From contig NZ_CP092431.1 in the NCBI RefSeq assembly GCF_022385335.1, positions 3,596,001 to 3,660,000 of the forward strand: a DNA stretch of 64,000 nucleotides. Reading direction: 5' to 3'. Under the pieces are notes generated by a model that saw only the letters and a list, made by a program, of their open reading frames with translations, did not search any database and was not told where the DNA came from. Source of the DNA: Streptomyces deccanensis. Its GTDB lineage: Bacteria; Actinomycetota; Actinomycetes; Streptomycetales; Streptomycetaceae. A program made the position numbers and the translations under genes. Of this stretch, positions 42,262 to 57,580 are shown in pieces. Each line of letters starts with the position of its first letter. Positions within the stretch are counted from its first letter, which is position 1.

Positions 42262-43425
42262 ATGCGAATTCACCCGGGTCCTCTGCTGCGCCGCGCATGG
42301 GTGGGCTGCTGCGCCCTCGCCGTCCTCTGGGGGCCCGGCGCTCCCGCGACGGCCGCCCCACCCGCTCCCTCCCCCGAGGCCGAGCGCGTGGCCTTCACCC
42401 AGCGCTACCGGGCGCTGCAGCACGGCGGGATCGTCCGCGCGGCCAACTCCTCCATCACCTGCCGTACCCAGGCGGCGGCCCCCCAGCCCTCGGCGTCCGC
42501 CCAGCCCTCGGCGTCCCCGCCGACCGCGCCGTCGTGCGCCGACGCGCGCGGGGGGCGTACCGCCGTGAACGACGACTTCGACATGTTCTACGTCGACGTC
42601 GACCGGGACCCGAACACCTACAACTCCAGCCGGGGCGAGGTCCGGCTGCCGCCGGGCGCGCGGGTGTCGTACGCGCGGCTGTACTGGGGCGGGAACCTGC
42701 GGGTGGGCGAGCAGAAGCCCCAGAAGGACAACGGGCGGGTGCTGATCGCGGAGCCCGGCGGCGCGTACAAGGAGGTGCTCGCGGACTCGATGGTGGGGCA
42801 CCGGGTGACGCGGGACGCGGACGCGTTCCAGGCCTCGGCGGACGTCACGGACCTGGTGCGGTCGAGCGGTTCGGGGCTCTACACGGTCGCGCAGGTCAAT
42901 GTGGCGATGGGCCGTTCGGCAGCCGGGGCGTGGGGCGGCTGGACGCTGACGGTGGCCTACGAGAACCCGGCGGAACCGCTGCGGCACCTGGCCATGTGGG
43001 ACGGGTTCGACACGCTCTCGACGGGCTTCGACGCGCTCCTGACGGACGGTGGGCAGCGGGTCCTGCTCAGTGGAGCGGCGCTGCCGGAACGGGCGCGCGG
43101 GACCGTGGGGCTGGTCGCCTACGACGGGGATCGCGGGAGCGCGGGCGACTCGCTCACCGTTTCGACCGGGCGGGGTCCGGCCGTCGCGCTCGGGGACGCG
43201 GCCAACCCCGTCGACGACGTCCTCAATTCGACGATCAGCCAGCAAGGGGCGGTCGTCACGGGGCGTACGCCGGCGTACGCGAACACCCTCGGATACGACT
43301 CGGACGTTCTCGAACTGGACGACGAAATCCAGCGCGGCGGTGACCAGTTGGCCTTCCGTCTCGTTTCGCAGCGGGACGCGGCTTGGGTCGGGGCGCTCTT
43401 CGTCGCCGTCGACGCCAAGCCGTGA
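42262..43425 (+). CDS. secreted DUF3344-type protein
   Basis: 387 residues from ATG 42262. Signal peptide to about residue 32 (LAVLWGPGAPATAAP). The mature part is a large beta domain: YVDVDRDPNTYNSSRGEVRLPPGARVSYARLYWGGNL, WGGWTLTVAYENPAEPLRHLAMWDGFDTL and YDSDVLELDD at the end, matching the DUF3344 pattern of surface proteins with beta-sandwich folds. It is the first gene of the + strand surface-polysaccharide locus, 39 bp before the first glycosyltransferase gene. It may be a structural partner of the polymer; there is no catalytic motif. Confidence 0.8.
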   Translation: MRIHPGPLLRRAWVGCCALAVLWGPGAPATAAPPAPSPEAERVAFTQRYRALQHGGIVRAANSSITCRTQAAAPQPSASAQPSASPPTAPSCADARGGRTAVNDDFDMFYVDVDRDPNTYNSSRGEVRLPPGARVSYARLYWGGNLRVGEQKPQKDNGRVLIAEPGGAYKEVLADSMVGHRVTRDADAFQASADVTDLVRSSGSGLYTVAQVNVAMGRSAAGAWGGWTLTVAYENPAEPLRHLAMWDGFDTLSTGFDALLTDGGQRVLLSGAALPERARGTVGLVAYDGDRGSAGDSLTVSTGRGPAVALGDAANPVDDVLNSTISQQGAVVTGRTPAYANTLGYDSDVLELDDEIQRGGDQLAFRLVSQRDAAWVGALFVAVDAKP

Positions 43426-43464
43426 CGCGCGCCGCCCGGCGCCGCCCTTGAGCGAGGAACCCGC

Positions 43465-44637
43465 ATGCAACTGTCACCATCCGACCCTCCGTCGCGGGTC
43501 CTGCACCTCACCCAGCCCGTCGACGGCGGCGTGGCCCGTGTCGTGACGGACCTGGTGCGGGCCCAGCTCGCCGACGGCCTGTGCGTCGCGGTGGCCTGCC
43601 CCGACGGTCCGCTCGCCCCGGAACTGCGCGCGCTCGGCGCCGATGTACGGCACTGGGCGGCCACCCGGTCGCCGGGGCCCACGCTCCTGTCCGAGGTCCG
43701 CGGGGTACGGCGGATCCTCGACGACGTACGGCCCGACCTGGTGCACGCGCACAGCGCGAAGGCCGGGCTCGCGGGCCGACTCGCCGTACGGGGGCGCGTG
43801 CCGACCGTGTTCCAGCCGCACGCCTGGTCGTTCGAGGCCGTGGACGGCGCGATGGCGGCGCTGGCGCTCGGATGGGAGCGAACGGGGGCGCGTTGGGCCT
43901 CGCGTGTGGTGTGCGTCAGTGCGGCGGAGCGCGTCACCGGGGAGCGGGCCGGGGTGCGGGCGCGCTGGACGGTGATCCCGAACGGGGTCGACGCCGGGCG
44001 CTTCCACCCCGCCGCCGTCGACACCGTGCGCGCCCAGATCCCGCTGCTGTCCGGGGTCGATCCGGCGGCGCCGCTGGTGGTGTGCGTGGGACGGCTGTGC
44101 CGGCAGAAGGGGCAGGACGTGCTCCTCGCGGCCTGGGACGAGGTGCTGCGGCGGGTGCCGGGGGCGCGGCTGGTGCTGGTCGGGGACGGGCCGGAGGGCG
44201 AGCGGCTGCGGGCGCTGGCGCCCGAGGGCGTGCTGTTCGCCGGAGCCGTCGCGAACGCGGTGCCCTGGTACCAGGCGGCCGATCTGGTCGTCCTGCCGTC
44301 GCGGTGGGAGGGCATGGCGCTGGCGCCGCTGGAGGCCATGGCGTGCGGGCGGCCGGTCGTGCTCACCGAGGTGGACGGAGCCCGCGAGAGTCTGCCGCCC
44401 GGCCAGGAGCCGGTGCCCGTCGAGGACCCCGCGGCGCTCGCCGGGGCCGTCGCCCGTCTGCTGCTCGACCCGCTGCTGCGGGAGTCGCTCGGCCACCAGG
44501 GGCGCCAACACGTACTGACCACGCACGACGTACGGCACACCAACGAGGCCGTCGCGGGCGTGTACCGCGAACTGCTCGGCGGTGCGGACGGCCGGCGCGG
44601 GAAAGCCACCGAGTGCAGGGAGTCCATCCACACGTGA
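43465..44637 (+). CDS. GT4-family glycosyltransferase
   Basis: 390 residues. GT-B fold: N-terminal VLHLTQPVDGGVARVVTDLVRAQLADG, C-terminal donor domain from about 205 with LVVCVGRLCRQKGQDVLLAAW, and the EX7E-type motif PSRWEGMALAPLEAMACGRPVV. It is cytosolic or membrane-associated and transfers a nucleotide-activated sugar to the growing lipid-linked glycan. It overlaps the next gene by 4 bp (GTGA). Confidence 0.92.
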   Translation: MQLSPSDPPSRVLHLTQPVDGGVARVVTDLVRAQLADGLCVAVACPDGPLAPELRALGADVRHWAATRSPGPTLLSEVRGVRRILDDVRPDLVHAHSAKAGLAGRLAVRGRVPTVFQPHAWSFEAVDGAMAALALGWERTGARWASRVVCVSAAERVTGERAGVRARWTVIPNGVDAGRFHPAAVDTVRAQIPLLSGVDPAAPLVVCVGRLCRQKGQDVLLAAWDEVLRRVPGARLVLVGDGPEGERLRALAPEGVLFAGAVANAVPWYQAADLVVLPSRWEGMALAPLEAMACGRPVVLTEVDGARESLPPGQEPVPVEDPAALAGAVARLLLDPLLRESLGHQGRQHVLTTHDVRHTNEAVAGVYRELLGGADGRRGKATECRESIHT

Positions 44638-46088
44638 CCGCGGAACGTACGGAAAGCACCGTCCCCTCCTCCGGTGGACAGCAACGCGAGTTCGGCGGCG
44701 CGTCCGTCTCGGTGGCCCCGCCGCGCGAGACCGTCGGCGGCCTGACCTTCCCGGCCGGCCGGCGCCCCGTCGCCCGGCCTCCCTCAGGGCTGCCGCTGCT
44801 CGCCGTGGACAGCGGCGCGGCCCTGCTGGCGGTGCTGGTCCTCACCGGTGACACCACCCCCGGGCGCCCCCTGATGGCGGCCGCCCTGGCGCTGGCCGTG
44901 GCGTGGCTGAACACCAGGGCTCGCCTCTACCGGCCGCCGGCCGTGCCCGCCGTGCTCGACGAACTGCCCGCCGTGTGCGCGCGGATCGTGCTCGGCTGGT
45001 GCGTCCTCGGCGCCGGTGTGGCCGCGCACTCCCCCGATCACGCGCTCGCCGCCCATGAGCTGGCCCTCGGCTGCGCCCTGCAGTCCGCGGCGGCCTGTGT
45101 CGGCCGGGGCACGGTCCACTGGCAGCGGCGCCGGGCCCTGGTCCGGCGCCCCGGCGCGGCCCTGGTGGTGGGCCCGGCGGCGACCGCGCAGCGCGTGGCC
45201 GCCGCCTTCCTGCGCCACCCGGGGTGCGGCATCCGGCCCGTCGGTGTCGTCGCCGACCAGGGCGGCGGGGCCGACGGCCTGCCCGTGCTGACCACCGCCG
45301 AGGAGGTGCGGAGAGCCGCCCTCCAGAACGGCGTGCGGGCCGTGCTCGTCGTCGGCTCGCGCATCGAACGCGCCCCGCTGTTGCGGACGTTGGAGGACGC
45401 CGGCTGCGCGCTGTGGGAGGTGGACGCCGAGTCCCCCTCGTACGACCCGGACGGCTCGACCGAACTGCTCGCCGGGTTCGCCTGCCGACGACTGGAGCTG
45501 ACGCGCAGTCATGAGACCGTCGGCAAGCGGCTGGTGGACATCGTGGTGTCCGGGGCGCTGCTGCTGATGGTGAGCCCGCTGCTGCTGGTCTGCGCGGTGG
45601 TGCTGCGGTTGGGCGACGGGCCCGGTGTGGTGTTCCGGCAGGAGCGGATCGGGCGGGACGGGCTGCCGTTCACCCTGCTGAAGTTCCGCACGCACCGGCC
45701 GGCCGACGCGCACGAGGCGGCGACCCGGTGGAGCGTGGCGAACGAGCAGGAGATGAGCTGGTTCTGCCGCTTCCTGCGGCGCACCTCGCTCGACGAGCTG
45801 CTCCAGCTGTGGAACGTGCTGCGCGGCGACATGAGCCTGGTCGGCCCGCGCCCCGAACGGCCCTACTTCGTGGCCAAGTTCGGACAGACCTACCCGGGCT
45901 ACGCTGCCCGGCACCGGATGCGGACCGGCATCACCGGCCTGGCCCAGGTCACCGGACTGCGCGGGGACACCTCCATCGAGGACCGCGCCCGCTTCGACAA
46001 CGCGTACATCGACAACTGGTCGCTGTGGCAGGACTTCTGCATCCTGGTCCGCACGGCCGCCGCGCTCGTCCGTCCGACGGGGAGCTGA
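44634..46088 (+). CDS. polyprenyl-phosphate sugar phosphotransferase (initiating transferase)
   Basis: 484 residues. The N-terminal half has about four TM helices and a CoA-binding-like nucleotide domain (GAALVVGPAATAQRVAAAFL). The C-terminal bacterial sugar transferase domain starts SHETVGKRLVDIVVSGALLL, with FRQERIGRDGLPFTLLKFRT, the catalytic RTSLDELLQLWNVLRGDMSLVGPRP, and MRTGITGLAQVTG. It belongs to the WbaP/WcaJ group that transfers sugar-1-phosphate to undecaprenyl phosphate, so it begins the repeat unit. Confidence 0.94.
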   Translation: MTAERTESTVPSSGGQQREFGGASVSVAPPRETVGGLTFPAGRRPVARPPSGLPLLAVDSGAALLAVLVLTGDTTPGRPLMAAALALAVAWLNTRARLYRPPAVPAVLDELPAVCARIVLGWCVLGAGVAAHSPDHALAAHELALGCALQSAAACVGRGTVHWQRRRALVRRPGAALVVGPAATAQRVAAAFLRHPGCGIRPVGVVADQGGGADGLPVLTTAEEVRRAALQNGVRAVLVVGSRIERAPLLRTLEDAGCALWEVDAESPSYDPDGSTELLAGFACRRLELTRSHETVGKRLVDIVVSGALLLMVSPLLLVCAVVLRLGDGPGVVFRQERIGRDGLPFTLLKFRTHRPADAHEAATRWSVANEQEMSWFCRFLRRTSLDELLQLWNVLRGDMSLVGPRPERPYFVAKFGQTYPGYAARHRMRTGITGLAQVTGLRGDTSIEDRARFDNAYIDNWSLWQDFCILVRTAAALVRPTGS

Positions 46089-46090
46089 CC

Positions 46091-47542
46091 GTGACGTCTG
46101 TGCGCGCTGCGGCGCCCGTCCTGCCCGTGGTCGCCGTGGTCGCCGCGCTCGCGCTGCCGATCACGTCGGACGCCGAGGGCGGGGCGACCCCGGCCGACGC
46201 CGTCTCCGGCCTCCTCGTGCTGTGGTGCGCCGCACGGCTGCTGCGGGACCGGCGGCGCCCCCTGACCCGTACGGCGACGGTGGTCCTCGGGCTGCCGGTC
46301 GTCGGGCTCGCGCTGGCCGCGGCCGGGGCGGGCGACCCGGGGGCCGGGATCGCCGGGCTCGGCCGGTACCTCCAGGTGTTCGTGCTGGTGCCGATGGCGG
46401 TCCTGCTCTGTGTACGGCACCGGTCCGACTTCCGGGTGGTGGCCTGGTCGTTCGTGGGGCTCGCGCTGTGGCAGGGCGCGGTCGGGGTGCACCAGTACGC
46501 CACCGGGACCGGGGCCAGCTACGCCGGTGAGGACATCCGGGCCGTGGGGACCTTCGGGGCCGGCGACGTGATGGGGATGGCGACCGTGGTGTCGTTCGGG
46601 CTGGTGTGCGCGGTGGGTCTCGCGCTGGCGCCCGCGACGGCGAAGCAGCGGGCCTGGGCGCTGGTCTGCTCGGCGCTGCTGGTGCTGCCGCTCGCGGTGT
46701 CGTTCAGCCGGGGCGCGTGGATCGCCGCGGCGGCGGCGTGCGGGATCCAGGTGGTGCTGGCCGGGCTGCGGCGGGCGGTGGTCGTCTTCGCGGCCGTGGC
46801 CGCCGTGGGTGTGGTCCTCGTCGGCGGGCTCGGCATCGGGTCCACGATGCTCCAGGACCGGATCAGCAGCATCACCCGGGTCACCGACGCGCCGGACCAG
46901 TCCGTCACCGACCGGTACACCATGTGGGCCGCGGCGGTCGGCATGTGGCGCGAACAGCCGCTGACCGGCGTCGGGTTGAAGGGCTTCCCCGAGCACCGCG
47001 ACAGCAACGCCTCGCTGGCGCTCTCCTCCGGCAGCGACATCGCCGGCGCGGGCACGGCCTACCAGAAGCAGCCGCTGCTCTCCCCGCACAACATGTACCT
47101 CCTGGTCCTGAGCGAGCAGGGCCTGATCGGCCTGCTCGCCCTCGGGGGCAGCTGGCTGGCCCTGGCGGTGTGCGGGGCGCGCGGGCTGGTACGGGCGCGA
47201 CGTGAAGCCGGGAACGGCGCGTGTGCCGGGGACGACCGTGGTTCCGACGGGCCCGGATGCGGCGTCGGTGGGATCGCGCCCGGGTCAGGTGGTGTCGACC
47301 GTCAGTCAGGGGGTGTCGACCGCCGCGCCGGTGGGGTCGACTGCGGGCTCGTCGCCTGCGGGCTGGTCGCGTGGGTGCTGGTCGACTTCGTGTACGCGGA
47401 CATCGGGGGACCGACGACCGTGCTGACCGCCGTGTGCTTCGGGCTGGTGGCGTGGTGGGCCCTGGCGGACCGGACGGCCACGGGCGCCGCTCCGGTCGGA
47501 GCCGCCAGGGTCCCCGTCCCGGAGGAGGCCGGCACACGATGA
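46091..47542 (+). CDS. O-antigen ligase/polymerase family membrane protein (Wzy-like)
   Basis: 483 residues from GTG 46091, 2 bp after the previous stop. About 10-11 TM helices. The Wzy_C pattern appears with FSRGAWIAAAAA and the large outer loop containing YTMWAAAVGMWREQPLTGVGLKGFPEHRD, then SPHNMYLLVLSEQGLIGLLAL. It polymerises or ligates repeat units on the outer face. A low-complexity insert of Gly/Asp (about residues 375-415) sits between the last helices. Overlaps the flippase gene by 4 bp. Confidence 0.9.
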   Translation: MTSVRAAAPVLPVVAVVAALALPITSDAEGGATPADAVSGLLVLWCAARLLRDRRRPLTRTATVVLGLPVVGLALAAAGAGDPGAGIAGLGRYLQVFVLVPMAVLLCVRHRSDFRVVAWSFVGLALWQGAVGVHQYATGTGASYAGEDIRAVGTFGAGDVMGMATVVSFGLVCAVGLALAPATAKQRAWALVCSALLVLPLAVSFSRGAWIAAAAACGIQVVLAGLRRAVVVFAAVAAVGVVLVGGLGIGSTMLQDRISSITRVTDAPDQSVTDRYTMWAAAVGMWREQPLTGVGLKGFPEHRDSNASLALSSGSDIAGAGTAYQKQPLLSPHNMYLLVLSEQGLIGLLALGGSWLALAVCGARGLVRARREAGNGACAGDDRGSDGPGCGVGGIAPGSGGVDRQSGGVDRRAGGVDCGLVACGLVAWVLVDFVYADIGGPTTVLTAVCFGLVAWWALADRTATGAAPVGAARVPVPEEAGTR

Positions 47543-49596
47543 CGACGCCTCCTCGCACCCCGCACGGAACACCGCCGGGGCCACCCCACCGGACGCCTAC
47601 GGCGGCCGACACCGCAGACCTCGTGCCGACGGCTGCGGACCCCGCCGACCCGGTCCACACGGCGTCCGATCTCACCGGCCCCACACCCGGTGCCTCCGGC
47701 TCCACAGGCCGCGTTTCCAGGGCTTCGGGCGCCACTGATCGCGCGCACGCGGCAGACACCCCCGCGCACGCCGTCCCCGGCCCGACGGGCCTCCTCTCCA
47801 CGGACTCGGGCCCCGCAGATCCCAAGCCCGCAGTCCACACCCCCACCGCCCCCAGACCCGCTACCTCCGGCCCCGACGACGCCGCGCCCGCATTCGCCGG
47901 CCCCACCCCCGGGCCGTCGGCCTCCCCCGTCGTCGAGCCCTTGGTACCCGGTGCCCGGGAGGCCGATCTGTCGGAGGTCGCGCCTCCCACGGGGCGGTTT
48001 CTCGCCAAGGCCACGCTTGTCACGGCTGCGCTCACGGCGGCGGCGGCCCTGCTGGGGCTGGGCCGCGACCAGGCGTTGTCGTATCTGTTCGGGGCCGGCA
48101 GCGAGACGGACGCCTTCCTGGTGGCCTGGACGGTGCCGGAGTTCGCGGCGACGCTGCTGATCGAGGACGGCATGGCGTTCGTGCTGGTGCCGGCCTTCAG
48201 CGTGGCCGTGGCCCGCCGCGCCCGGGGCGGCGTGGGCGACCCGGTCCGCTCGCTGGTCGCCTCGACGCTCCCCCGGCTGACGCTAGCCTTCGTCGCCGCG
48301 GCCCTGCTGCTGATCGTCGGCGCGCCCTATCTCGTCGAGGCGCTCGCCCCCGGTCTCCCGAACCCCCGACTGGCCGTCGACTGCACCCGGTTGACCGGCA
48401 CCTGCGCCCTCTCCTTCGGTCTCGCCGGCTACTGCAGCGCCGCCCTGCGCGCCCACCGCCGGTTCGTGGCCCCCGCGGCGATCTACGTCGCCTACAACGT
48501 CGGCATCATCACGGCGATGTTCGTGCTCGGCGGACGCTGGGGCGTGCGGGCGGCGGCCGTGGGCGTCGCGGTGGGCGGCGTGCTGATGATCCTCACCCAG
48601 CTGCCGTCGCTGCTGCGCCAGTTGCGCCGCAAGGGCCCCGCGTCCGCACCGTACGAGGCGTCCGAACCGTACGAGCCACCCCACGCGCCCGGGTCGGCCC
48701 AGCCCTCCGAATCCGTCGCCTCCGCCGCCCGCCCCGTCGAGTTCGCCCTCTTCGGCACCGTCCTGCTCTTCGCGCTCTGCCGTCAGTCCCAGGTCCTCAT
48801 CGAGCGTTTCCTCGGCTCGACGCTGCCCGCCGGGGCCATCTCGCACCTCAACTACGCGCAGAAGGTGGCCCAGATCCCGATGACGTTCTCGCTGATGCTG
48901 TGCACCGTCACCCTCCCGGTGGTGGCGCAGGCGATGGCGGAGGGCGACACCGAGCGGGCCCGCAACCGGGTGGAGAAGGACCTCGCGCTGGTGTCGTGCA
49001 TCGTGCTGCTGGGCGCGGCGGCGATCTTCGCGTGCGGCCCGCAGATCATCGAACTGCTCTTCCAGCGTGGTGCGTTCACCGCGCGGGACACGGCCGCCAC
49101 CGCCGCCGTGATGCGGGTGTACGCCCTCGGGCTGCTCGGTCACGCCCTGGTGAGCGCGCTGGTCCGCTCCTACTTCTCGGCGGGCCGGCCCACGTGGTAC
49201 CCGCTGGTCGCCATGGTCGCCGGGATCGTCGCGACCTCGTGGATCGGCGCGGCCACCGTCGGTTCCTGGGGCGTCCTCGGCATCGCCGCCGCCAACGCCG
49301 TCGGCATCACCCTGACCGCCCTGCTCCTGCTGTACGGCATGGGCGGCCGGGCGGTGCCGATCCGCACCCGGCAGGTGGTGACCGAGATGAGCCGGCCCGT
49401 GCGGGCGGCCGTGGCCGCGGGCGTGGCGGGGATGTACTGCGCCGACCGGTTCGACTCACCCGTCCTCGGTCTCGCCGTCGGCGGCGCGGTCGTCGCCTTC
49501 GTCTTCGTCCTGCTGGCCTGGGCCATGGACGCCTCCGGTGTCACGCCCGCACTCCGTTCCGTCACACGAAGGCTCGCCGATGTCCGTATCCGCTGA
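47539..49596 (+). CDS. MurJ/MVF-type lipid-linked glycan flippase with long N-terminal extension
   Basis: 685 residues. The first about 150 residues are a Pro/Thr/Ala-rich cytoplasmic tail; the MVF core then starts TGRFLAKATLVTAALTAAAALLGLGRDQALSYLFGAGSETDAFLVAW, with about 14 TM segments and FQRGAFTARDTAATAAVMRVYALGLLGHALV. Core motifs are those of MurJ, but the place in an exopolysaccharide operon, the lone extension and the lack of other murein genes suggest a Wzx role for the locus polymer. The extension also reaches the length range of actinobacterial MviN but carries no kinase-like or FHA-binding segment that I can see. Confidence 0.9.
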   Translation: MTTPPRTPHGTPPGPPHRTPTAADTADLVPTAADPADPVHTASDLTGPTPGASGSTGRVSRASGATDRAHAADTPAHAVPGPTGLLSTDSGPADPKPAVHTPTAPRPATSGPDDAAPAFAGPTPGPSASPVVEPLVPGAREADLSEVAPPTGRFLAKATLVTAALTAAAALLGLGRDQALSYLFGAGSETDAFLVAWTVPEFAATLLIEDGMAFVLVPAFSVAVARRARGGVGDPVRSLVASTLPRLTLAFVAAALLLIVGAPYLVEALAPGLPNPRLAVDCTRLTGTCALSFGLAGYCSAALRAHRRFVAPAAIYVAYNVGIITAMFVLGGRWGVRAAAVGVAVGGVLMILTQLPSLLRQLRRKGPASAPYEASEPYEPPHAPGSAQPSESVASAARPVEFALFGTVLLFALCRQSQVLIERFLGSTLPAGAISHLNYAQKVAQIPMTFSLMLCTVTLPVVAQAMAEGDTERARNRVEKDLALVSCIVLLGAAAIFACGPQIIELLFQRGAFTARDTAATAAVMRVYALGLLGHALVSALVRSYFSAGRPTWYPLVAMVAGIVATSWIGAATVGSWGVLGIAAANAVGITLTALLLLYGMGGRAVPIRTRQVVTEMSRPVRAAVAAGVAGMYCADRFDSPVLGLAVGGAVVAFVFVLLAWAMDASGVTPALRSVTRRLADVRIR

Positions 49597-50395
49597 TCGC
49601 CCGCCCGTCCCCGCCGGCCGCTCGTCCGCGTCCGCCGGTCGCCCGTCCGTCCCCGCCGGCCGCAGACCGGCGGGGACCGCCGCCGCGCACCTCTGGGTGG
49701 CCATGTACCACTCGGTCGGCGACTGCTCCGACGACCCGTACCGCGTCACGGTCTCGCCCGACCGCCTCGACGCGCAGCTCAGCTGGCTGCGGCGGCGGGG
49801 GCTGCGCGGGGTCGGCATGGCCGAGCTGCTCGCCGCCCGCGCCCGGGGCGAGGCCCGGGACCTGGTGGGGCTCACCTTCGACGACGGGTACGCCGACTTC
49901 GTCGACCACGCGCTGCCGCGCCTGCGGGCGCACGGCTGCGGGGCCACGCTCTTCGTGCTGCCGGGACGGCTCGGCGGCGAGAACGCCTGGGATCCGCTGG
50001 GCCCGCGCAAACCGCTCCTCGACAAACAGGGCATCCGGGTGGCCGCCGGGACCGAGGGCATCGAGATCGGCTCGCACGGCCTGACCCATGTCGACCTGAC
50101 CGAGGCGGACGACGAGACGCTGCGCGCGGAGACCGCCGACAGCAGGACCCTGCTCGCCGAGCTGATCGGCGCTCCGGTCCAGGGCTTCTGCTATCCGTAC
50201 GGCACCCTCGACCAGCGCGCCGCCGACGCCGTGCGGGACGCCGGGTACGCCTACGCCTGCGCCATCGACCCCGGCCCGTTGAACGGCCCGTACGCGCTGC
50301 CCCGGGTGCACATCGGCGAGGAGGACACGGCCCTGCGGCTGCTGCTGAAGCGGAAGCTGCACCGGCTGCGCCGGCGTCCCGTCGAGGGGGTCTGA
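49580..50395 (+). CDS. polysaccharide deacetylase (NodB/CE4 family)
   Basis: 271 residues; ATG 49580 lies inside the 3' end of the flippase gene (17-bp overlap). A short Ala/Pro-rich N-terminus precedes the NodB domain: motif 1 LTFDDGYADF (catalytic Asp and metal Asp), motif 2 EIGSHGLTHVDLTE (metal His pair S-H-x4-H) and later FCYPYGTLDQRA. It removes N-acetyl groups from amino sugars. There is no signal peptide, so the substrate may be a lipid-linked precursor inside the cell. It indicates an N-acetylhexosamine in the polymer. Confidence 0.92.
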   Translation: MSVSADRPPVPAGRSSASAGRPSVPAGRRPAGTAAAHLWVAMYHSVGDCSDDPYRVTVSPDRLDAQLSWLRRRGLRGVGMAELLAARARGEARDLVGLTFDDGYADFVDHALPRLRAHGCGATLFVLPGRLGGENAWDPLGPRKPLLDKQGIRVAAGTEGIEIGSHGLTHVDLTEADDETLRAETADSRTLLAELIGAPVQGFCYPYGTLDQRAADAVRDAGYAYACAIDPGPLNGPYALPRVHIGEEDTALRLLLKRKLHRLRRRPVEGV

Positions 50396-50401: not shown

Positions 50402-51550
50402 GTGAAGGCGCTGCACATCATCACCGGCCTCGGCGTCGGCGGCGCGGAACAGCAACTGCGGCTGCTGCTGCGGCACCTGCCGGTCGACTGCGACGTGGTG
50501 ACGCTGACCAACCCGGGCCCGGTCGCCGACGGCCTCACCGCCGACGGCGTCCGCGTGACCCACCTCGGCATGGCGGGGAACCGCGATCTCGCCGCGCTCC
50601 CCCGGCTGGTGCGGTTGATCCGCGCGGGCGGCTACGACCTCGTCCACACCCATCTCTACCGGGCCTGCGTCTACGGCCGGATCGCCGCCCGGCTGGCGGG
50701 GGTCCGCGCGGTCGTCGCCACCGAGCACTCCCTCGGCGACTCGCAGATGGAGGGCAGACGACTCTCCGCCGGCGTGCGCGCCCTCTACCTCGCCAGCGAG
50801 CGGCTCGGCCGGTCCACGGTCGCCGTCTCGCCGACCGTCGCCGACCGGCTGAAGCGCTGGGGCGTGCCGGCCCCCCGGATCGAGGTCGTGCCCAACGGCA
50901 TCGACCTCGCGGGCTTCCGCTTCGACGCGGACCTGCGGGAGCTGACGCGGCGGCGGCTCGGGCTACCGGAGGACGCGTACGTCGTCGGGGGCGTCGGCCG
51001 GCTCGCGGCGAGCAAGCGGTTCGACGTATTGATCCGCGCCCTGGCCCAACTGCCGGACGACTGCTGGCTGTTGGTGGTCGGCGGCGGAGCCGAGGAGAGC
51101 GTGCTGCGGCGGGCCGCCCAGCGCGCCGGGGTCGCCGACCGGGTCCTGCTCACCGGGGAACGCCCGGCGGCCGGGGCCCCCGGCGCCGATCTCCCCTCCC
51201 TGATGAACGCCATGGACGTCCTCGCCTCACCCAGCGCCGAGGAGGCCTTCGGGCTCGCGGTGGTGGAGGCGATGGCATCCGGGCTGCCCGTGCTCTATGT
51301 CTCCTGCCCGGCGATCGAGGACCTGCCCCCGGAATCGACCGTGGGCGCCCGACGCGTCCAGGGGGGCGCGGAGTCGTTCGTACGCGCCCTGCTGGACGTC
51401 CGCGCGCAGGGCACGCGCTCTCGCGCGGTCCCCGCCGCCGCCCAGCACTACTGCATCACCCGCAGCGCCGCCCAGCTCATGGACGTGTACGCGGCCGCCG
51501 TCTCCAGCACGCCCTCGCCGACCCCGCCCTTGGGAGTGAGTTCCGTATGA
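50402..51550 (+). CDS. GT4-family glycosyltransferase
   Basis: 382 residues from GTG 50402. N-terminal MKALHIITGLGVGGAEQQLRLLLRHL is the GT4 signature; donor domain with VGGVGRLAASKRFDVLIRAL and ASPSAEEAFGLAVVEAMASGLPV (EX7E). It is the second sugar-adding enzyme of the locus. Its stop overlaps the Wzz-like gene start (ATGA). Confidence 0.92.
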   Translation: MKALHIITGLGVGGAEQQLRLLLRHLPVDCDVVTLTNPGPVADGLTADGVRVTHLGMAGNRDLAALPRLVRLIRAGGYDLVHTHLYRACVYGRIAARLAGVRAVVATEHSLGDSQMEGRRLSAGVRALYLASERLGRSTVAVSPTVADRLKRWGVPAPRIEVVPNGIDLAGFRFDADLRELTRRRLGLPEDAYVVGGVGRLAASKRFDVLIRALAQLPDDCWLLVVGGGAEESVLRRAAQRAGVADRVLLTGERPAAGAPGADLPSLMNAMDVLASPSAEEAFGLAVVEAMASGLPVLYVSCPAIEDLPPESTVGARRVQGGAESFVRALLDVRAQGTRSRAVPAAAQHYCITRSAAQLMDVYAAAVSSTPSPTPPLGVSSV

Positions 51551-52215
51551 CCGACCGTACGTCCGAACACCCGACCGACAGCCCGACCCGTGGGTCGGCT
51601 CCCCTCTCCCGCGTCAGGTCCCTGCCCTCCTGGTCCCTGCTCGCCGCCGGCGCGCTGCTCGGGGGGCTGGCCGGGGGCGCGTACGGCGTGGTGAAGGCGC
51701 CCGTGTACACCGCCACGAGCTATGTCGTCGCCGTGCCCGCCGAGGGGTCGGACCCCCAGACGGCGCTCGGTTTCGCCCAGGCGTACGGGCGGGTCGCGAC
51801 CCAGGTCGCGGTGCTCGGGGACGCCCAGGTGTGGGCGGGGGTGCCGATCGGGACGCTGCGGAAGAACGTGCGGACGGCGACGTCGCCGGACGCGCCGATG
51901 GTCGCCGTGTCGGCCACCTCCGCACGGCCGGACCTCGCCGCCGACATGGCCAACGCCGTCTCACGCGCGCTGACCCGGCACGCGAACGACTCCGAACGGT
52001 CCACGCGCGTCGAGCTGCGGGAGTTCGCCCGCGCGACCAGGCCGACCGAGGCGTCCTCGGCGTCGTCGACGGTGACCGGTCTGGTGGGCACCGCCGCCGG
52101 CGGGCTGCTCGGCGGGCTCGCCCTGCTGGTCCGGCCCCGACGCACCCCACAGACACCACCCGCCGCCTCCGTACCGGGCCCCGCTCTCGCCGCAGACACC
52201 CACGGTCAGCTGTGA
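51547..52215 (+). CDS. Wzz-like chain-length/polysaccharide co-polymerase
   Basis: 222 residues. Two TM helices (about residues 28-48 and 170-190) enclose an outer domain starting VVKAPVYTATSYVVAVPAEGSDPQTALGFAQAYGRV; the helix pair and the Pro-rich region near the second TM fit the Wzz/PCP family, though shorter than E. coli Wzz. It probably sets chain length with the Wzy-like protein. No tyrosine-kinase domain is fused, and none is encoded nearby. Confidence 0.85.
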   Translation: MTDRTSEHPTDSPTRGSAPLSRVRSLPSWSLLAAGALLGGLAGGAYGVVKAPVYTATSYVVAVPAEGSDPQTALGFAQAYGRVATQVAVLGDAQVWAGVPIGTLRKNVRTATSPDAPMVAVSATSARPDLAADMANAVSRALTRHANDSERSTRVELREFARATRPTEASSASSTVTGLVGTAAGGLLGGLALLVRPRRTPQTPPAASVPGPALAADTHGQL

Positions 52216-53390
52216 CCAGCACCCTGCAGACGGGGTCGAGCACCACCCTGCGCGCCGAACTCTGCACCGACGAGGCCGAGTTCGGCGAGCTGACCGAGGC
52301 CTGGGACCGGCTGTACCGGCGGTGCGGCGCGGCCACCCCGTTCCAGAACCACGCCTGGCTGCACTCCTGGTGGCTGTCGTACGGCACCCCCGGCAGACTC
52401 CGTCTGGTCCTGGTCCGCGACGGTGCCGAGCTGCGCGCGGCCGCCCCGCTGATGCTCGTACGGCGTCCGCTGCCCACCCTCGTCCCGCTCGGCTGCCCCA
52501 TCTCCGACTTCGCGGACGTCCTCCTCGACGACGAGCACACCGAGCAGGCCTCGGCGGCGCTCGCCGAAGGGCTGTCGGCCGTCGCCCGGACGGCGTTGAT
52601 CGACTTCCGCGAGGTACGGCCGGGCGCCGCCGTCGAACGGATCTACGACCGCTGGCCGGGTCCGCGTCGCAAGGTGGCGGACTCGGTCTGTCTGGAGCTG
52701 CCCGCCGAGCCCATGGACGAACTGCTCAAGCGGCTGCCCAACTCCCGGGCCCAGCGGGTGCGTGCCAAGCTCCGCAAGCTCGGCGACCTCGGTATCGAGC
52801 CGCGTGCCGTGCGCGCCGACGAGGTGGACGCGGCGCTGCGGACCATGCTGGACCTGCACCGGCTCCAGTGGCAGGACCGCAAGGTGACCACCGAGCACAT
52901 GCGGCCCCGATTCTCCGAACACCTGGTCCGCTCGGTCGGGCCGATGGTGCGCTCGGGGGACGCCGTGGTGACCGAGTTCCGGCTGGGCGGCGACGTCCTG
53001 GCCGTCGACGTCACCCTGCTGTCGCGCCGGCTGGCGGGCGGCTACCTCTACGGCGCCCACCCCCGGCTGCGCGAACGCAAGGCGGACGTCGCCACCATGC
53101 TGCTCGACGCCTGCGCCGGGCACGTCGGCTCCGGCGCCCAGCAGGTGCTGAGCCTGCTGCGGGGCGCCGAGCCGTACAAGCTGCGTTGGCGCCCGGACAC
53201 CGTGGTCAACCAGCGGCTGCTGCTGGCCCGCCGCCGCACCGCACCGCTGCTGTCGGCGGCGGTCTGCGACGCGGCGGCCCGCGGCCAGGGCAAGGAGCTG
53301 GTCCGCCGCTGGCGCGCCCGCAAGGACGCGAAGAACCCGAAGAACCCGGAGACCACGAAGAAGGACCGTGGTGACGGCGGCGGGCGGTGA
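52212..53390 (+). CDS. GNAT/FemAB-like acyltransferase (BioF2/CelD type)
   Basis: 392 residues, GTG overlapping the previous stop. It has a tandem GNAT fold: TPFQNHAWLHSWWLSYG in the first half, and LLKRLPNSRAQRVRAKLRKL, then VTEFRLGGDVLAVDVTLLSRRLAGGYLYGAHPRLRERKADVATMLL in the second. Similar proteins are called CelD/BcsL or FemAB-like in cellulose and exopolysaccharide loci and attach acyl or aminoacyl groups. The highly basic C-terminus (RARKDAKNPKNPETTKK) is probably disordered. Confidence 0.85.
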   Translation: MTSTLQTGSSTTLRAELCTDEAEFGELTEAWDRLYRRCGAATPFQNHAWLHSWWLSYGTPGRLRLVLVRDGAELRAAAPLMLVRRPLPTLVPLGCPISDFADVLLDDEHTEQASAALAEGLSAVARTALIDFREVRPGAAVERIYDRWPGPRRKVADSVCLELPAEPMDELLKRLPNSRAQRVRAKLRKLGDLGIEPRAVRADEVDAALRTMLDLHRLQWQDRKVTTEHMRPRFSEHLVRSVGPMVRSGDAVVTEFRLGGDVLAVDVTLLSRRLAGGYLYGAHPRLRERKADVATMLLDACAGHVGSGAQQVLSLLRGAEPYKLRWRPDTVVNQRLLLARRRTAPLLSAAVCDAAARGQGKELVRRWRARKDAKNPKNPETTKKDRGDGGGR

Positions 53391-53412
53391 GCCGCCCGCC
53401 GCCGTCCGCGGG

Positions 53413-54795
53413 TCACCGGTAGCGCGCCCACCAGTCCGTGCGGATGCAGAGCTTCCCGCCGATCCAGTACTCCACCCAGTCGCCCAGCTCCAGCGGCGAG
53501 CAGTTCGGCGGGCGTACGGGCGTGGTGGGAGCCGGCTTCGGCGTGGGGGTCGGCGTCGGGGTGGGCGTGGGTGTGGGCGTCGGCTTCGGGGTGGCGGACG
53601 CGTCCGTGTCACGGCCGAAGAGCATCGACCGGTACACCTGGGCCGCCTTCGGGTTGGCTGCGCACTGCCAGACACCGTGCGGGCAGTAGTCCGTGAGCGT
53701 GTTGTAGAGCGGCTTGTGCTCGTCCATCCAGGCGAGCATGCGCCGCATGTACTCCGGGTTGTCGCCGTTGCGGAAGAGTCCCCATTCCGCATAGGAGATG
53801 GGCTTCTTGTGCGCCTTCGCGAAATCGACGTGTGCCTGCAGACCGTACGGTTCCTTCACCTGCTCGTCGAAGGTGATTCCGCGCGGCTGGTCGTAGGAGT
53901 CCATGCCGATGATGTCGACCGTGTCGTCCCCCGGATAGCACTGCGTCCAGGGAATGGCGTCCCGGCCGCGGTTCGGGGTCCAGTCGAACTTGAACTTCTG
54001 GCCCGGCACCGCGCGCATCGTGGTGACGATCCTGTTCCAGTACTTCTTCCAGCTCTCCGGGTCGGGCCCGCAGCGATGGGTGTACGTGATGCCGTTCATC
54101 TCCCAGCCGAGCACGATCACCGTGTCCGGGATCTTCAACTCGACCAGCCGCTGCGCGAGTCGGCGGTAGTGGTGGTCGAACTGACCGGCGGCTGCGCGGC
54201 GCAGCAGCGCGCGGACCTCCCAGTCGGAGACGCCCTCCTCGTTGCGCTCCATCATGGGCACGTTGAGGACGAACATCCGGTCGTCCTCGTCGCGCCGCCA
54301 CTCCGCCCAGGAGTCCAGGAAGCCGGGCAGCCCCTCGATGTTGGACCAGCGGTCGCCCGGCAGATAGGTGTGCGCCACCCGCAGGTCGGAGCCGCCGAGC
54401 CAGTCGCTCAGCTCGGCGATCCGGGCGACGCCACGGGGCCCGTAGTGCAGATAGGCGCCCATGGCCGGCAGCTGCTCCGGAGGCTTCGGGGTCTGGGAGG
54501 GAGTGGCCGGCAGGGGCGAGGTGCCCTGCGGCGCGACGGACGCGTTCGGGACGAGGGGTGCCGTCGGAGCGGCCGGGACCGTGGGGGCCGGAGACACCGT
54601 GGGAGTGGCCGGGGTCGTGGAAGTGGCCGGGGTCGCCGGAGCCGGTGGGTCGGTCACCCGGACCACCAGCTGCGTGCCCCCGGCGTACACCGGGACCGAC
54701 GCGAGGGCGAACGACGCGACCACGCCGGCCGCGACGAGCGCCAGCCGTCTGCCGCGGGACCGCCTGTGCCGATGCCGCCGCTGTTGTGGAGCCAT
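53413..54795 (-). CDS. secreted glycoside hydrolase, family 26-like
   Basis: 460 residues from ATG 54795 (GAGAGGGG site). An N-terminal membrane or signal segment (about 20-40) and a Thr/Pro linker (about 55-105) precede the catalytic domain (about 112-390): GWEMNG with the acid/base Glu and ISYAEWGLF with the nucleophile Glu, the GH26 beta-mannanase pattern. A (PT)n linker and a small Cys-containing C-terminal domain follow (NCSPLELGDWVEYWIGGKLCIR). It faces the opposite way to the polysaccharide operon and may trim or release the polymer. Confidence 0.88.
   Translation of the reverse strand: MAPQQRRHRHRRSRGRRLALVAAGVVASFALASVPVYAGGTQLVVRVTDPPAPATPATSTTPATPTVSPAPTVPAAPTAPLVPNASVAPQGTSPLPATPSQTPKPPEQLPAMGAYLHYGPRGVARIAELSDWLGGSDLRVAHTYLPGDRWSNIEGLPGFLDSWAEWRRDEDDRMFVLNVPMMERNEEGVSDWEVRALLRRAAAGQFDHHYRRLAQRLVELKIPDTVIVLGWEMNGITYTHRCGPDPESWKKYWNRIVTTMRAVPGQKFKFDWTPNRGRDAIPWTQCYPGDDTVDIIGMDSYDQPRGITFDEQVKEPYGLQAHVDFAKAHKKPISYAEWGLFRNGDNPEYMRRMLAWMDEHKPLYNTLTDYCPHGVWQCAANPKAAQVYRSMLFGRDTDASATPKPTPTPTPTPTPTPTPKPAPTTPVRPPNCSPLELGDWVEYWIGGKLCIRTDWWARYR
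53530..53600. repeat. repeats coding the (Pro-Thr)n linker
   Basis: GGTGTG/GGCGTC-type 6-mers code about ten Pro-Thr pairs between the catalytic and C-terminal domains of the GH26 protein. Confidence 0.8.
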
Positions 54796-54968
54796 GTCCG
54801 CCCCTCTCTCCGCTTTCTTCACTTCACTGCTTTCCGCCGCCGATTTCCACCTACTGACAATCAGTCATACGAATACGAATTCCGCCAACTGGGGCTCCGG
54901 CCTTCGGGTGCCCGAATCGCCCGCACGGGTGACCCGACGTCAAAGAAATGTGCGAGGACCCCGACGAA

Positions 54969-56321
54969 ATGAATGTGTCGCCGCTCGACACCCGCGTTCC
55001 GGCCGTACTGCTGCGGACGGACCGCAATCCCTTCCACCACGGAACCCTGGGAGCCGTACGGTCCTTGGGGCGGGCCGGGGTGGAGGTGCATCTGGTCGCC
55101 GACTGCGCGGCGAGCCCCGTGCGCAGCTCCCGGTTCATCCGCGCGACCCACACCCCACCCCGCCCGGGGGCCGGTCTCGACGAGTTCGCGCGCGTCCTGC
55201 GCCAGGTGGCGAACCGGGTCGGCCGCCCGGCCGTGCTGGTCGCCCTGGACGACGCGAGCGCGGTGGCCGCCGCCCGACTGCGCGCGGAGCTGACGGACCG
55301 TTTCCTGCTGCCAGCCGGGCCGCCCGACCTCGCCGAGCAGGTGGCCGACAAGGCCGAACTCGCCGTGCTGTGCGGGCGGCTGGGCCTCCCGCACCCCGCG
55401 ACCGCCGTCCCCGACAGCGCGGCGGAGGCGGAGGCCGCCGCCCGTGAGCTGGGCCTGCCGGTGGTGGCCAAGTGGAGCCGTCCGTGGCTGCTGCCCGCCG
55501 GATCGGGACTGCGCAGCACGGTGGTGCTGCGCTCGGCCGGGGAGGCGGCGGCCCTGTATCGGCGTACGGAGCGGGCGGGCAGCCGGCTGCTGCTCCAGGC
55601 CTTCCTGCCGCCGGGGCTGGACCGCGACTGGTTCTTCCACGGCTACGTGGACCGTGCCGGAGTCGTGCGCTGCGGCGGGCCCGGCCGGAAGTTGGGCGCC
55701 TGGCCGCCCGGCGCGGGCCTGACCACGGTCGGCCGCTGGACGCCGAACCCCCAGGTGCAGGCCCTGGCGGAGCGGTTGACCGGCGCGCTCGGCTACCGGG
55801 GCGTGTTCGACCTCGACTTCCGCCGCGAGGGCCGGACCGACGTCTACCACCTGCTCGACTTCAACCCCCGTCCCGGCGCCCAGTTCCGGCTGTTCACGGA
55901 CACCGCCGGTATCGACGTCGTACGCGCCCTGCACCTGGACCTGACCGGCCGTCGGGTGCCGGACGGGGCGCCGGTGCCGGGCCGGACCTTCGTCGTGGAG
56001 AACTACGCCCCGCTGACCGCGCTGCGCCCCCATCCGCTCCCCTGCCCGCCGTCCCGGCCGGGTGCGCGCGAGCTGGCCTGGTACGCGCGGGACGACCGCG
56101 CCCCCGGCCTCGCGCTGTGGTCCATGTGGCCGCGCCACGCGCTCGGCCGACTGCTGGCGCCCCGCGCGCCCGCTCCCGACCGGCACGTACGCGCCCCCGC
56201 CGAGCGCGCTCCCGACCATCACCGCGCCCCCGACGGCCACCGGGCGGAGAACAGCGCCCAGAACCGAGCCGGCAACCGCGCCGAGAAGCGTGCCGAGAAC
56301 GAGAAAGCGAGCAGTGCCTGA
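54969..56321 (+). CDS. ATP-grasp enzyme, carboxylate-amine ligase-like
   Basis: 450 residues from ATG 54969; GTG 54948 is in frame. N-terminal domain VPAVLLRTDRNPFHHGTLGAVRSLGRAGVEVHLV, then the ATP-grasp fold: LAEQVADKAELAVLCGRLGLPHPAT, LGLPVVAKWSRPW and the metal-site segment GVFDLDFRREGRTDVYHLLDFNPRPGAQF (Asp...Asn-x-Arg). The C-terminal 60 residues are Ala/Arg-rich and probably disordered. Such stand-alone ATP-grasp proteins join a carboxylate to an amine, or act in non-ribosomal peptide or polymer decoration. It overlaps the following flavoprotein gene by one base. Substrate not known. Confidence 0.85.
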   Translation: MNVSPLDTRVPAVLLRTDRNPFHHGTLGAVRSLGRAGVEVHLVADCAASPVRSSRFIRATHTPPRPGAGLDEFARVLRQVANRVGRPAVLVALDDASAVAAARLRAELTDRFLLPAGPPDLAEQVADKAELAVLCGRLGLPHPATAVPDSAAEAEAAARELGLPVVAKWSRPWLLPAGSGLRSTVVLRSAGEAAALYRRTERAGSRLLLQAFLPPGLDRDWFFHGYVDRAGVVRCGGPGRKLGAWPPGAGLTTVGRWTPNPQVQALAERLTGALGYRGVFDLDFRREGRTDVYHLLDFNPRPGAQFRLFTDTAGIDVVRALHLDLTGRRVPDGAPVPGRTFVVENYAPLTALRPHPLPCPPSRPGARELAWYARDDRAPGLALWSMWPRHALGRLLAPRAPAPDRHVRAPAERAPDHHRAPDGHRAENSAQNRAGNRAEKRAENEKASSA

Positions 56322-57580
56322 TGTACGACCTGCTGGTGGTGGGCGCCGGCCCGTACGGCCTGTCCATCGCGTCCCACGCCGCGGCCGCCGGGCTGAGCCT
56401 GCGCGTCCTCGGCCGGCCCATGGCGTCCTGGCGGGACCACATGCCGCCCGGCATGTTCCTCAAGTCCGAGCCGTGGGCCTCCAACCTCTCCGATCCCGAG
56501 GGGCGTTGGCGCCTCGACGTGTACTGCGCGCAGCGTGGCGTCGAGGCCCGCCACGGGCTGCCGATCCCGGTCGGCACCTTCGCCTCCTACGGGCTGTGGT
56601 TCGCCCGGAACGCCGTTCCCCCCGTCGACGAACGGACGGTGGCATGCGTCCGGCGCCGCTGCGGCGGCTTCGAGGCGGTCCTGACCGACGGCGACGTGGT
56701 CCGCGCCCGTACGGTGGTCCTCGCCGTCGGTGTGATCCCCTTCGTCGAAGTCCCGCCCGTGTTCCGCGAGTTGTCCGCCGACCGGGTCTCCCACAGCAGC
56801 CACCACCACGACCTCGGCCGGTTCCGCGGCAGGGACGTCACGGTGATCGGCGGTGGCCAGGCGGCACTGGAGACGGCCGCGCTCCTCGCCGAACAGGGCA
56901 CCAGGGCCCGGGTGTTGGCCCGCTCCCCCCACCTCCGCTGGAACGACGTGCCACCCCCGCTGGTGCGCCCCGCGCTGCACTCGGTCCGCTCCCCGCACAG
57001 CGGCCTGGGCTGCGGCTGGCGCAACTGGTTCTATGCCGAGCGGCCCGGCTGGTACCGCCGTCTGCCTGAGGCGCGACGGGTGCGAGTGGCCGCCGAGGCG
57101 CTCGGACCCGCGGGTGCCTGGTGGCTGCGCGACCGCGTCGAGCGCACCGTCGAGGTACGGCTCGGCCAGGAGGTCGCCGTGGCGTACGAGACGGGCGACG
57201 GCGTGCGCCTGGAGACGGTCGACCGGAGCGGCGAGCTGACCTCGCTGGACACCGAACACGTCATCGCGGCCACGGGGTTCAGGGCCGGGTGCGACCGGCT
57301 GGATCTGCTCTCGCCGGAGGTGCGCGCGGACCTCGTGCCCCTGTCCGACGGCTCGCCCGCCGTCGGGCGGGACTTCGAGTCCACGGTCCCCGGCCTGTTC
57401 CTCGCGGGCCTGACCACGGCCGCCGGCTTCGGCCCCGCGATGCGCTTCGTGCACGGCGCGTCGTTCACGGCGCCCACCCTCGTACGAGGCGTGCGGCGGC
57501 GGCTGCGCTCAGGGGTGCCCGGCGGCCGGATCCCGGTGCCGGGGGCACGAGCCGACCTGGCGTCCACCGCCGGGTCGTGA
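56321..57580 (+). CDS. FAD-dependent oxidoreductase/monooxygenase-like flavoprotein
   Basis: 419 residues. FAD motif VVGAGPYGLSIASHAAAAG at the N-terminus; second dinucleotide motif VIGGGQAALETAALLAEQG (about residue 175) for NAD(P)H; ATGF motif HVIAATGFRAGCDRLD and the C-terminal FAD contact GLFLAGLTTAAGFGPAMRFVHG. The layout fits N-hydroxylating or Baeyer-Villiger-like monooxygenases and TrkA/CzcO-type proteins. It is translationally coupled to the ATP-grasp gene, so the two probably act on one small molecule or on the same polymer substituent. Confidence 0.87.
   Translation: MYDLLVVGAGPYGLSIASHAAAAGLSLRVLGRPMASWRDHMPPGMFLKSEPWASNLSDPEGRWRLDVYCAQRGVEARHGLPIPVGTFASYGLWFARNAVPPVDERTVACVRRRCGGFEAVLTDGDVVRARTVVLAVGVIPFVEVPPVFRELSADRVSHSSHHHDLGRFRGRDVTVIGGGQAALETAALLAEQGTRARVLARSPHLRWNDVPPPLVRPALHSVRSPHSGLGCGWRNWFYAERPGWYRRLPEARRVRVAAEALGPAGAWWLRDRVERTVEVRLGQEVAVAYETGDGVRLETVDRSGELTSLDTEHVIAATGFRAGCDRLDLLSPEVRADLVPLSDGSPAVGRDFESTVPGLFLAGLTTAAGFGPAMRFVHGASFTAPTLVRGVRRRLRSGVPGGRIPVPGARADLASTAGS

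Follow-up and report, generated by a model that had tools for sequence, protein, structure and literature searches.

A putative Wzy-type polysaccharide pathway within an aerial-coat gene island of Streptomyces

INTRODUCTION

Textbooks count chaplins and rodlins among the components of the Streptomyces coat. The genes that in the model species separate chpF from chpA, in contrast, are without a described role in the literature searched. What do these genes make, and does their product belong to the coat? The question is raised here by a 64,000-nucleotide stretch of a 10.1-Mb Streptomyces chromosome (C1:3596001-3660000; the window), in which twelve genes for a polysaccharide pathway lie to the right of a chaplin gene and are followed by a long LPETG-bearing chaplin gene, a short chaplin gene and three rodlin genes. 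The best named match to the window deacetylase is from Streptomyces caniscabiei (92%). The S. coelicolor orthologues of the pathway genes are presumably SCO2706-2715, between the chaplin genes SCO2705 and SCO2716. Literature on SCO2705 and SCO2716 concerns them as chaplin genes, and SCO2713 was used in one study as a control for quantitative PCR. Searches by SCO number and by topic, with most subscription papers and supplementary files outside their reach, returned no published function for the locus. This agrees with an earlier reading of the DNA (the original prediction), which knew of no described product.

Here we propose, with moderate confidence, that these genes form a Wzy-type surface heteropolysaccharide pathway that was recruited in Streptomyces into an island of aerial-coat genes. 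The product, a glycan, probably has a part in the aerial surface, or in the matrix, where chaplins assemble, although its timing and its contact with chaplins are points that we infer. Judged from the genomes compared, Streptomyces and one further genus, g7, show a real but secondary tie to chaplins.

RESULTS

Twelve genes for a putative, nearly complete Wzy-type pathway

Pfam profiles applied to the open reading frames identified, at 42262-57580, twelve genes of a nearly complete Wzy-type polysaccharide pathway (Table 1). All twelve, and the chaplin and rodlin genes on both sides, were present where the original prediction had placed them, and its view of the set as a surface glycan pathway of the Wzy type is supported by the gene content. 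Its labels for single genes held for most families, which scored over their cut-offs, among them the profiles Glyco_transf_4 and Glycos_transf_1 for the GT4 enzymes; the Wzz-like and ATP-grasp-like proteins, however, are sub-threshold, and the flippase belongs to the MurJ family (PF03023) and not to the classical Wzx proteins.

The initiating transferase Pgt passes TIGR03025, with the WcaJ and WbaP models of NCBIfam below cut-off, and its relatives with solved structure are WbaP and a bacillosaminyl-phosphate transferase. The flippase scored 207 bits against TIGR01695, below the cut-off of 235.6, and 18.9 bits of 300 against an NCBIfam Wzx-like model; MurJ-family and Wzx flippases form one superfamily. 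Since 29 of 121 Streptomyces genomes have no match to the deacetylase of the locus at 1e-35, it is improbable that this MurJ-family protein serves as the essential flippase of lipid II. The Wzz-like protein, though under its Pfam cut-off, has two membrane segments as in that family. In the deacetylase the candidate catalytic residues D101, D102, H166 and H170 are unchanged in 28/28 alignment rows, and its solved-structure matches include, among others, deacetylases of poly-N-acetylglucosamine (PNAG). The GH26 protein passes its family profile, PF02156; E241 (GWEMNG) and E346 (EWG), which we take to be its two catalytic glutamates, are also unchanged in all 28 rows, and its nearest solved relatives are, at weak scores, GH26 enzymes, mostly beta-mannanases. 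These kept residues and solved relatives suggest that the product contains an N-acetylamino sugar that becomes deacetylated, in agreement with the original prediction, which had read the deacetylase as a pointer to amino sugars, and that GH26 is a hydrolase cutting the polymer made by this pathway. The repeat unit is not readable from the sequence. Pyruvate carboxylase, RimK and LysX came up as weak matches to the ATP-grasp-like protein.

Overlaps of 4 bp occur at four junctions (gt4a/pgt, wzy/murJ, gt4b/wzz and wzz/gnat); murJ and the deacetylase gene overlap by 17 bp and the ATP-grasp and flavoprotein genes by 1 bp, and gaps of 39, 2 and 6 bp separate DUF3344 from gt4a, pgt from wzy and the deacetylase gene from gt4b. 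A strict third-position G+C filter selects 10 of the 12 frames; as it misses pgt and the flavoprotein gene, these two frames rest on their domains.

With gene set, gene order, residues and linkage read directly from the sequence, we infer the product and the direction of each step as follows. Pgt would put the first sugar-phosphate onto undecaprenyl phosphate, and the two GT4 enzymes would lengthen a short repeat, from which the cytoplasmic deacetylase would strip an N-acetyl group and which the GNAT protein may acylate. The MurJ-family protein would flip the lipid-linked unit, the Wzy_C protein would polymerise it to a length set by the Wzz-like protein, and the exported GH26 would trim or release the polymer.

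The Wzy_C step could be read differently. PF04932 covers polymerases as well as ligases. The window protein, with ten predicted helices, scores over the cut-off of this profile, which is named O-antigen ligase, and its best sub-threshold match in NCBIfam is a putative O-glycosylation ligase. Wzy_C might then be a ligase that moves an oligosaccharide to a surface protein, perhaps the DUF3344 protein, or to a wall polymer, and no long polymer would be made. However, the Wzz-like and GH26 genes are kept alongside wzy in 71/71 and 69/71 Streptomyces regions, respectively, which fits a long polymer, and we regard the ligase as improbable. A surface heteropolysaccharide would be the most likely product.

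The core gene order is kept in one family

Among the 121 Streptomyces genomes, the Wzy protein was matched in 85 (E 1e-10 or better) and the deacetylase in 92 (1e-35), all 85 Wzy-positive genomes included. A draw from the family gave matches in 114/150 genomes and 6/17 genera, and a draw from the class in 24/246 genomes (1e-20), which comprised 20 Streptomyces and four genomes from three genera of one other family. By these counts the pathway appears to be largely a trait of the family of Streptomyces.

Regions of up to 20 kb were fetched for all 85 Streptomyces matches, of which 71 of at least 17 kb were counted and 14 shorter ones dropped, and for 40 matches in five other genera, in a choice that favoured long contigs. 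The core order GT4-pgt-wzy-murJ-deacetylase-GT4-wzz-GNAT-GH26 is kept, with few exceptions, in six genera of one family, and it is more than chance, as genera outside Streptomyces share this order of nine genes at roughly 50-65% identity. In Streptomyces, gt4a, wzy, murJ, the deacetylase gene, gt4b and wzz were found in all 71 regions, pgt in 70, GNAT in 69 and GH26 in 69. DUF3344 (38/71), the ATP-grasp gene (41/71) and the flavoprotein gene (34/71) are present in only part of the regions and are thus accessory.

The exceptions are of several kinds. In G022 the sole pgt-like gene found (42% identity) sits behind GNAT. The G045 region yielded neither pgt nor GH26, and no GH26 was found in G067 or in five of the ten regions of genus g3; G012 and 13 relocated copies (see below) have it on the plus strand. 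GNAT was not found in the G026 and G027 regions. A further set comprised 64 named regions, each 17 kb or longer, drawn from the 80 best deacetylase matches and hence close relatives; a chaplin was present in 57 of them. In 16 of these 64, as in L067 and L068, the rest of the core was kept and GNAT was not found. Since the other core genes stay where GNAT is not found, one lineage or more can apparently do without acylation.

Chaplin genes accompany the pathway in Streptomyces and in genus g7

We built a chaplin model from the ten chaplin-domain matches of the window genome, among them the chaplin at 36138..36494, and with it detected chaplins in 57 of the 71 regions fetched for Streptomyces and in all ten of g7, where rodlins were present as well (10/10). 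A first count by tblastn had given 59/71, and 6 of the 14 short regions that were dropped also show a chaplin. For about five chaplin places spread over 9-10 Mb, we estimate a chance expectation of roughly 1%. The distance to the nearest chaplin was scanned in 12 of the 14 chaplin-less Streptomyces and in two genomes with short regions, G097 and G061: it was about 8 kb in G058, about 19 kb in G031 and about 110 kb in G088, and in the other genomes scanned the chaplins were far away or on other contigs.

We next consider the tree of the locus, calculated with FastTree from four core proteins for the 115 of 125 loci having all four genes and rooted at the midpoint. Genera g3, g7, g11 and g14 each formed one clade with a support of 1.0, as expected under vertical descent. 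The chaplin-linked loci and g7 fell into one large clade, inside which we read about seven separate losses of the chaplin; the earliest branches of this clade are weak (0.28 and 0.66, then 0.96 once the first two loci are left aside), and so are some others. On this tree the link looks like one gain followed by about seven losses.

A second arrangement was seen in 13 loci, in which GH26 lies on the plus strand past GNAT with other genes in between. In 12 of these relocated copies a chaplin gene on the same strand stands right behind GNAT, G100 being the one without, and all 12 chaplins have in the preceding gap a motif of 13-20 bits resembling the promoter motif described below. In all 13 copies MelC1, which encodes the tyrosinase helper, is found at a distance of no more than 20 kb. 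Seven of the 13 are on long chromosome contigs, where those of G005, G052, G065, G066 and G100 lie within 0.6 Mb of an end and those of G057 and G082 at 1.3-1.5 Mb from an end; the copy of G019 is on a 1.6-Mb contig and five further copies are on short contigs. The relocated locus L092 contains a chaplin, the tyrosinase, MelC1, a P450 and GH26. Two linear plasmids, one of Streptomyces sp. NBC_00150 (220 kb; NZ_CP130717.1) and one of S. melanogenes (175 kb; NZ_CP109020.1), also have the island (loci L171 and L172), and both carry together a chaplin, the tyrosinase, its helper, two chaplins, the core and GH26. The plasmid annotation table is incomplete and does not list the deacetylase, at whose position it has a gap. 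In the S. melanogenes plasmid copy, a transposase gene stands within the operon.

Promoter motifs of the coat genes and of the operon

From chaplin and rodlin upstream regions we learned a two-box motif, GCACAAC and CGTTGA separated by about 17 bases, which presumably matches the BldN consensus; by its sequence it looks like a promoter of sigma BldN. It exceeds 11 bits in 71/163 chaplin and 63/82 rodlin upstream regions, counts that are favourable by construction because the motif was trained on these same regions; the shuffled controls gave 3 and 5, and the opposite strand, to which divergent neighbours contribute, 19 and 41, respectively. Many of the gene starts assumed in the upstream scan are guesses. 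Sigma BldN has been reported to drive the chp and rdl genes (PMC4255298). In the window the motif precedes the left chaplin, the long chaplin and the three rodlin genes, and two of the four chaplins are without it (Table 1); the pathway genes score 4.9 (DUF3344), 2.6 (GH26) and -1.1 bits (ATP-grasp).

When operons were sorted by their first gene, those starting with DUF3344 passed 11 bits in 2/42 upstream regions (shuffled, 4) and those starting with GT4 in 12/79 (shuffled, 1; opposite strand, 7). Seven of these 12 are g7 loci, so that 7/10 operon upstream regions of this genus pass; in two of the seven the motif falls on the presumed start codon. An element like GGGATTACC-N15-TCGTTGA was seen upstream of the pathway in six of the ten g7 loci (L131-L140) and, by its form, may be a promoter of the extracytoplasmic-function (ECF) type. 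The upstream region shared by the left chaplin and the operon of the window (41963-42261) holds, on the operon side, a conserved stretch around CTTCACC..TTCCGACACA and GAGTTGCGCA; in an alignment of 34 sequences it lies between the chaplin promoter and DUF3344, and it differs from the BldN-like motif.

Is the link more than common descent?

Several results weigh against a bond between the pathway and the coat. Across the 121 genomes, pathway and rodlins were both present in 65, the pathway only in 20, rodlins only in 28 and neither in 8 (Fisher p = 1.0); with the pathway defined by its deacetylase the counts were 69, 23, 24 and 5 (p = 0.46), again without co-occurrence. Co-retention with rodlins, which the original prediction had named as a check, is rejected on these counts, and a rodlin tie as a requirement is not supported. 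No chaplin was found in any of the 30 regions of other genera (g14 0/17, g3 0/10, g11 0/2, g10 0/1). Six rodlin-less genomes (G007, G049, G063, G067, G104 and G108) keep the pathway with the coat genes gone. Upstream of the operon the BldN-like motif exceeds 11 bits in 6/81 Streptomyces regions, which is not above background, and a BldN promoter common to pathway and coat genes was therefore rejected for Streptomyces. Finally, on the tree the link goes back to one inherited gain, and the genomes that show it, however many, are not independent.

In the 71 Streptomyces regions, a chaplin was present in 53/55 from rodlin-bearing genomes versus 4/16 from rodlin-less ones, which would fit a joint loss of chaplins and rodlins. 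The 17 scanned genomes of g3, g10, g11 and g14 do carry chaplins, none of them within 40 kb of wzy among the matches listed. As the core thus stands without a nearby chaplin in four genera whose scanned genomes carry chaplins elsewhere, the pathway is, on this comparison, older than the chaplin link.

Polysaccharide and chaplins could accordingly be functionally unrelated and have stayed neighbours only because they were inherited in a chromosomal segment that rearranges slowly. The single origin of the link, a locus that predates it and is kept without it in four genera, and the lack of a common promoter above background all fit this explanation. As a control we used the gene for an AMP-binding ligase right of the rodlins, requiring an orthologue of at least 65% identity. 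Among 31 genomes having both wzy and this ligase, the two lie within 20 kb in 19, which also speaks for descent; in seven the ligase is on another contig, and in G088 it is 83 kb off and chaplins are missing. In G027, G093, G098 and G103, however, the ligase is 1.5-2.0 Mb off and chaplins still flank the pathway. The link is also kept in 38/45 regions of genomes without such a ligase orthologue, in 12 of the 13 relocated copies and on the two plasmids. The six rodlin-less genomes show the opposite, with the ligase about 8-14 kb away and a region without a chaplin. Descent alone seems to us on the whole unlikely.

On the evidence of these genomes, the chaplin link outlives rearrangements, since four genomes with a distant ligase retain it, yet the pathway has no need of it, since the six rodlin-less genomes keep the locus. 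The synteny with chaplins that the original prediction had put forward is thus borne out in most Streptomyces regions, throughout g7, in four rearranged genomes and on two plasmids, and fails elsewhere. A locus found equally often far from chaplins, which the prediction had named as evidence against itself, was encountered in part: all 30 regions of the four genera and 14 of the 71 in Streptomyces have no chaplin nearby.

A tyrosinase operon belongs to the island

The span given by the original prediction, 42262-57580, is slightly too narrow: a chaplin, a tyrosinase and its helper MelC1, at 36138-37988 to the left, also belong to the neighbourhood of the pathway. At least 55 of the 71 Streptomyces regions, including at least 10 of the 14 chaplin-less ones, have MelC1 no more than 20 kb from wzy, and a chaplin or MelC1 is present in at least 67. 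By position and rank of score the tyrosinase operon of the island resembles melD. According to Yang and Chen (PMC2758597), melD was found in all Streptomyces sequenced at the time, MelD2 of S. coelicolor is intracellular and deletion of melD makes this species sensitive to phenolics; its MelD1 has been reported to be without a Tat signal. A melanin coat was considered and provisionally rejected, the linked tyrosinase being melD-like and its S. coelicolor counterpart reported intracellular; the MelC1 of the window (37506-37988) has a Tat-like TRRNALR stretch, though.

The tyrosinase operon, with its wide association and the phenolic sensitivity of the S. coelicolor mutant, might even be the true partner of the pathway, in an island that serves life with plant phenolics, the glycan acting as a barrier and the chaplins as passengers. 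We give this little credence, as MelC1 is not near in 16/71 regions among the matches listed, 8 of which are of the left-flank type with chaplins, and as MelD2 is reported to stay inside the cell. The alternatives weighed here exclude neither each other nor the pathway part of the reading that we favour.

Other features of the window

As shown in Table 1, the coat genes of the window include a rodlin 1 gene with no Pfam match; used as query, rodlin 1 recovers the other two window rodlins at 86% and 74% identity. Beside the left chaplin, two proteins that look secreted by eye are encoded on the minus strand (about 40143-40433 and 40605-41684), the second with no Pfam match.

Table 1. Features of the pathway and its neighbourhood in the window
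Feature	Position	Strand	Evidence
Chaplin, wider island	36138..36494	+	PF03777 96 bits; BldN-like motif -1.4 bits (none)
Tyrosinase (MelC2/MelD2 type)	36656..37522	-	PF00264 151 bits
Tyrosinase helper MelC1/MelD1	37506..37988	-	PF06236 108 bits
Short chaplin, divergent from polysaccharide operon	41723..41962	-	PF03777 103 bits; BldN-like motif 21.8 bits
DUF3344 protein, first gene of putative operon	42262..43425	+	PF11824 29.3 bits, cut-off 27.2; signal-peptide-like start
gt4a, GT4 glycosyltransferase	43465..44637	+	PF13692, PF13439
pgt, polyprenyl-phosphate sugar-1-phosphate transferase	44634..46088	+	TIGR03025 322 bits, cut-off 296; PF02397 (Bac_transf)
wzy, Wzy_C polymerase	46091..47542	+	PF04932 74 bits; 10 predicted helices
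MurJ-like lipid-linked oligosaccharide flippase	47539..49596	+	PF03023 204 bits; 12 predicted helices
Polysaccharide deacetylase	49580..50395	+	PF01522 84 bits; TFDD and HGxxH motifs present; no membrane segment
gt4b, GT4 glycosyltransferase	50402..51550	+	PF13439 95 bits
Wzz-like co-polymerase	51547..52215	+	PF02706 17.8 bits, below cut-off 25.5; two membrane segments
CelD-like GNAT acyltransferase	52212..53390	+	PF13480 73 bits (Acetyltransf_6)
GH26-family hydrolase, secreted or anchored	53413..54822	-	PF02156 30.7 bits, cut-off 20.2; N-terminal hydrophobic segment
ATP-grasp-like ligase, accessory	54948..56321	+	PF13549 sub-threshold, 20.5 bits vs cut-off 27.6
Flavoprotein oxidoreductase or monooxygenase, accessory	56321..57580	+	PF13738, PF13434 over cut-off (Pyr_redox_2/3, Lys_Orn_oxgnase)
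Long chaplin, one ChpA-C domain	57642..58721	-	PF03777 74 bits; repeat stalk; LPETG sortase signal and helix; BldN-like motif 13.1 bits
Short chaplin	58832..59089	-	PF03777 99 bits; BldN-like motif 2.4 bits (none)
Rodlin 1	59339..59752	-	BldN-like motif 17.6 bits
Rodlin 2	60006..60419	+	BldN-like motif 18.6 bits
Rodlin 3	60535..60945	+	BldN-like motif 19.8 bits
AMP-binding ligase, right of rodlins	61035-62981		

DISCUSSION

By kind, the closest characterised developmental relatives of the locus appear to be imp and wps-1 of Actinoplanes missouriensis, likewise Wzx/Wzy-type exopolysaccharide clusters, which are described as needed for a developmental surface structure, the sporangium matrix (PMC13390465, PMC12691653). 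According to the passages on it (PMC13390465), wps-1 shares a GH26 gene (wpsE) with our locus, a feature that its authors had not met in any characterised Wzx/Wzy cluster. Compared by description, it differs in its GT2 and GT26 transferases, its sulfotransferases and a flippase of another family, and chaplins are not mentioned in those passages. In the same source wps-3 of A. missouriensis is described with a deacetylase, GT4, Wzx, Wzy, Wzz and a BioF2-like acyltransferase, as here, but with aminotransferase and ring-cleavage genes and no GH26 listed; its deletion is reported to have no phenotype (PMC13390465).

Window proteins gave sub-threshold matches to the NCBIfam models of HfsE, HfsH and the XrtA system, every one far below its curated cut-off, and membership in the holdfast or XrtA/PEP-CTERM families was thus not found. 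The Caulobacter holdfast (Hfs) and XrtA/PEP-CTERM loci combine an initiating transferase, a deacetylase, a GNAT or FemAB-like enzyme, GT4 enzymes and a Wzy_C protein; unlike in these loci, outer-membrane export parts were not found among the twelve genes.

MatAB and CslA/GlxA polymerise by synthases. Their products, PNAG and a cellulose-like glycan, are likewise Streptomyces surface glycans, described as affecting the wall and aggregation (PMC7300013, PMC5972031, PMC11022532), but they are made by other loci, reported as SCO2962-2963 and SCO2836. The ste cluster for Ebosin in Streptomyces sp. 139 also has a sugar-phosphate transferase, glycosyltransferases and export genes, but differs in comprising about 27 genes with sugar-precursor and regulatory ones among them (PMC11078827).

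We favour the view that an older operon joined an island of chaplins, rodlins and a tyrosinase operon in the Streptomyces lineage and mostly stayed there. A bolder proposal would be that the aerial coat is amyloid plus a dedicated polysaccharide, the glycan serving as scaffold or anchor of chaplins, GH26, the ATP-grasp-like ligase and the flavoprotein tuning it and the island moving as a unit, linear plasmids included; this we offer as tentative and rather doubtful. If a glycan layer does carry the chaplins, what anchors short chaplins to hyphae would become testable through one operon, and, with the island carried by linear plasmids, some components of the aerial coat would be transferable.

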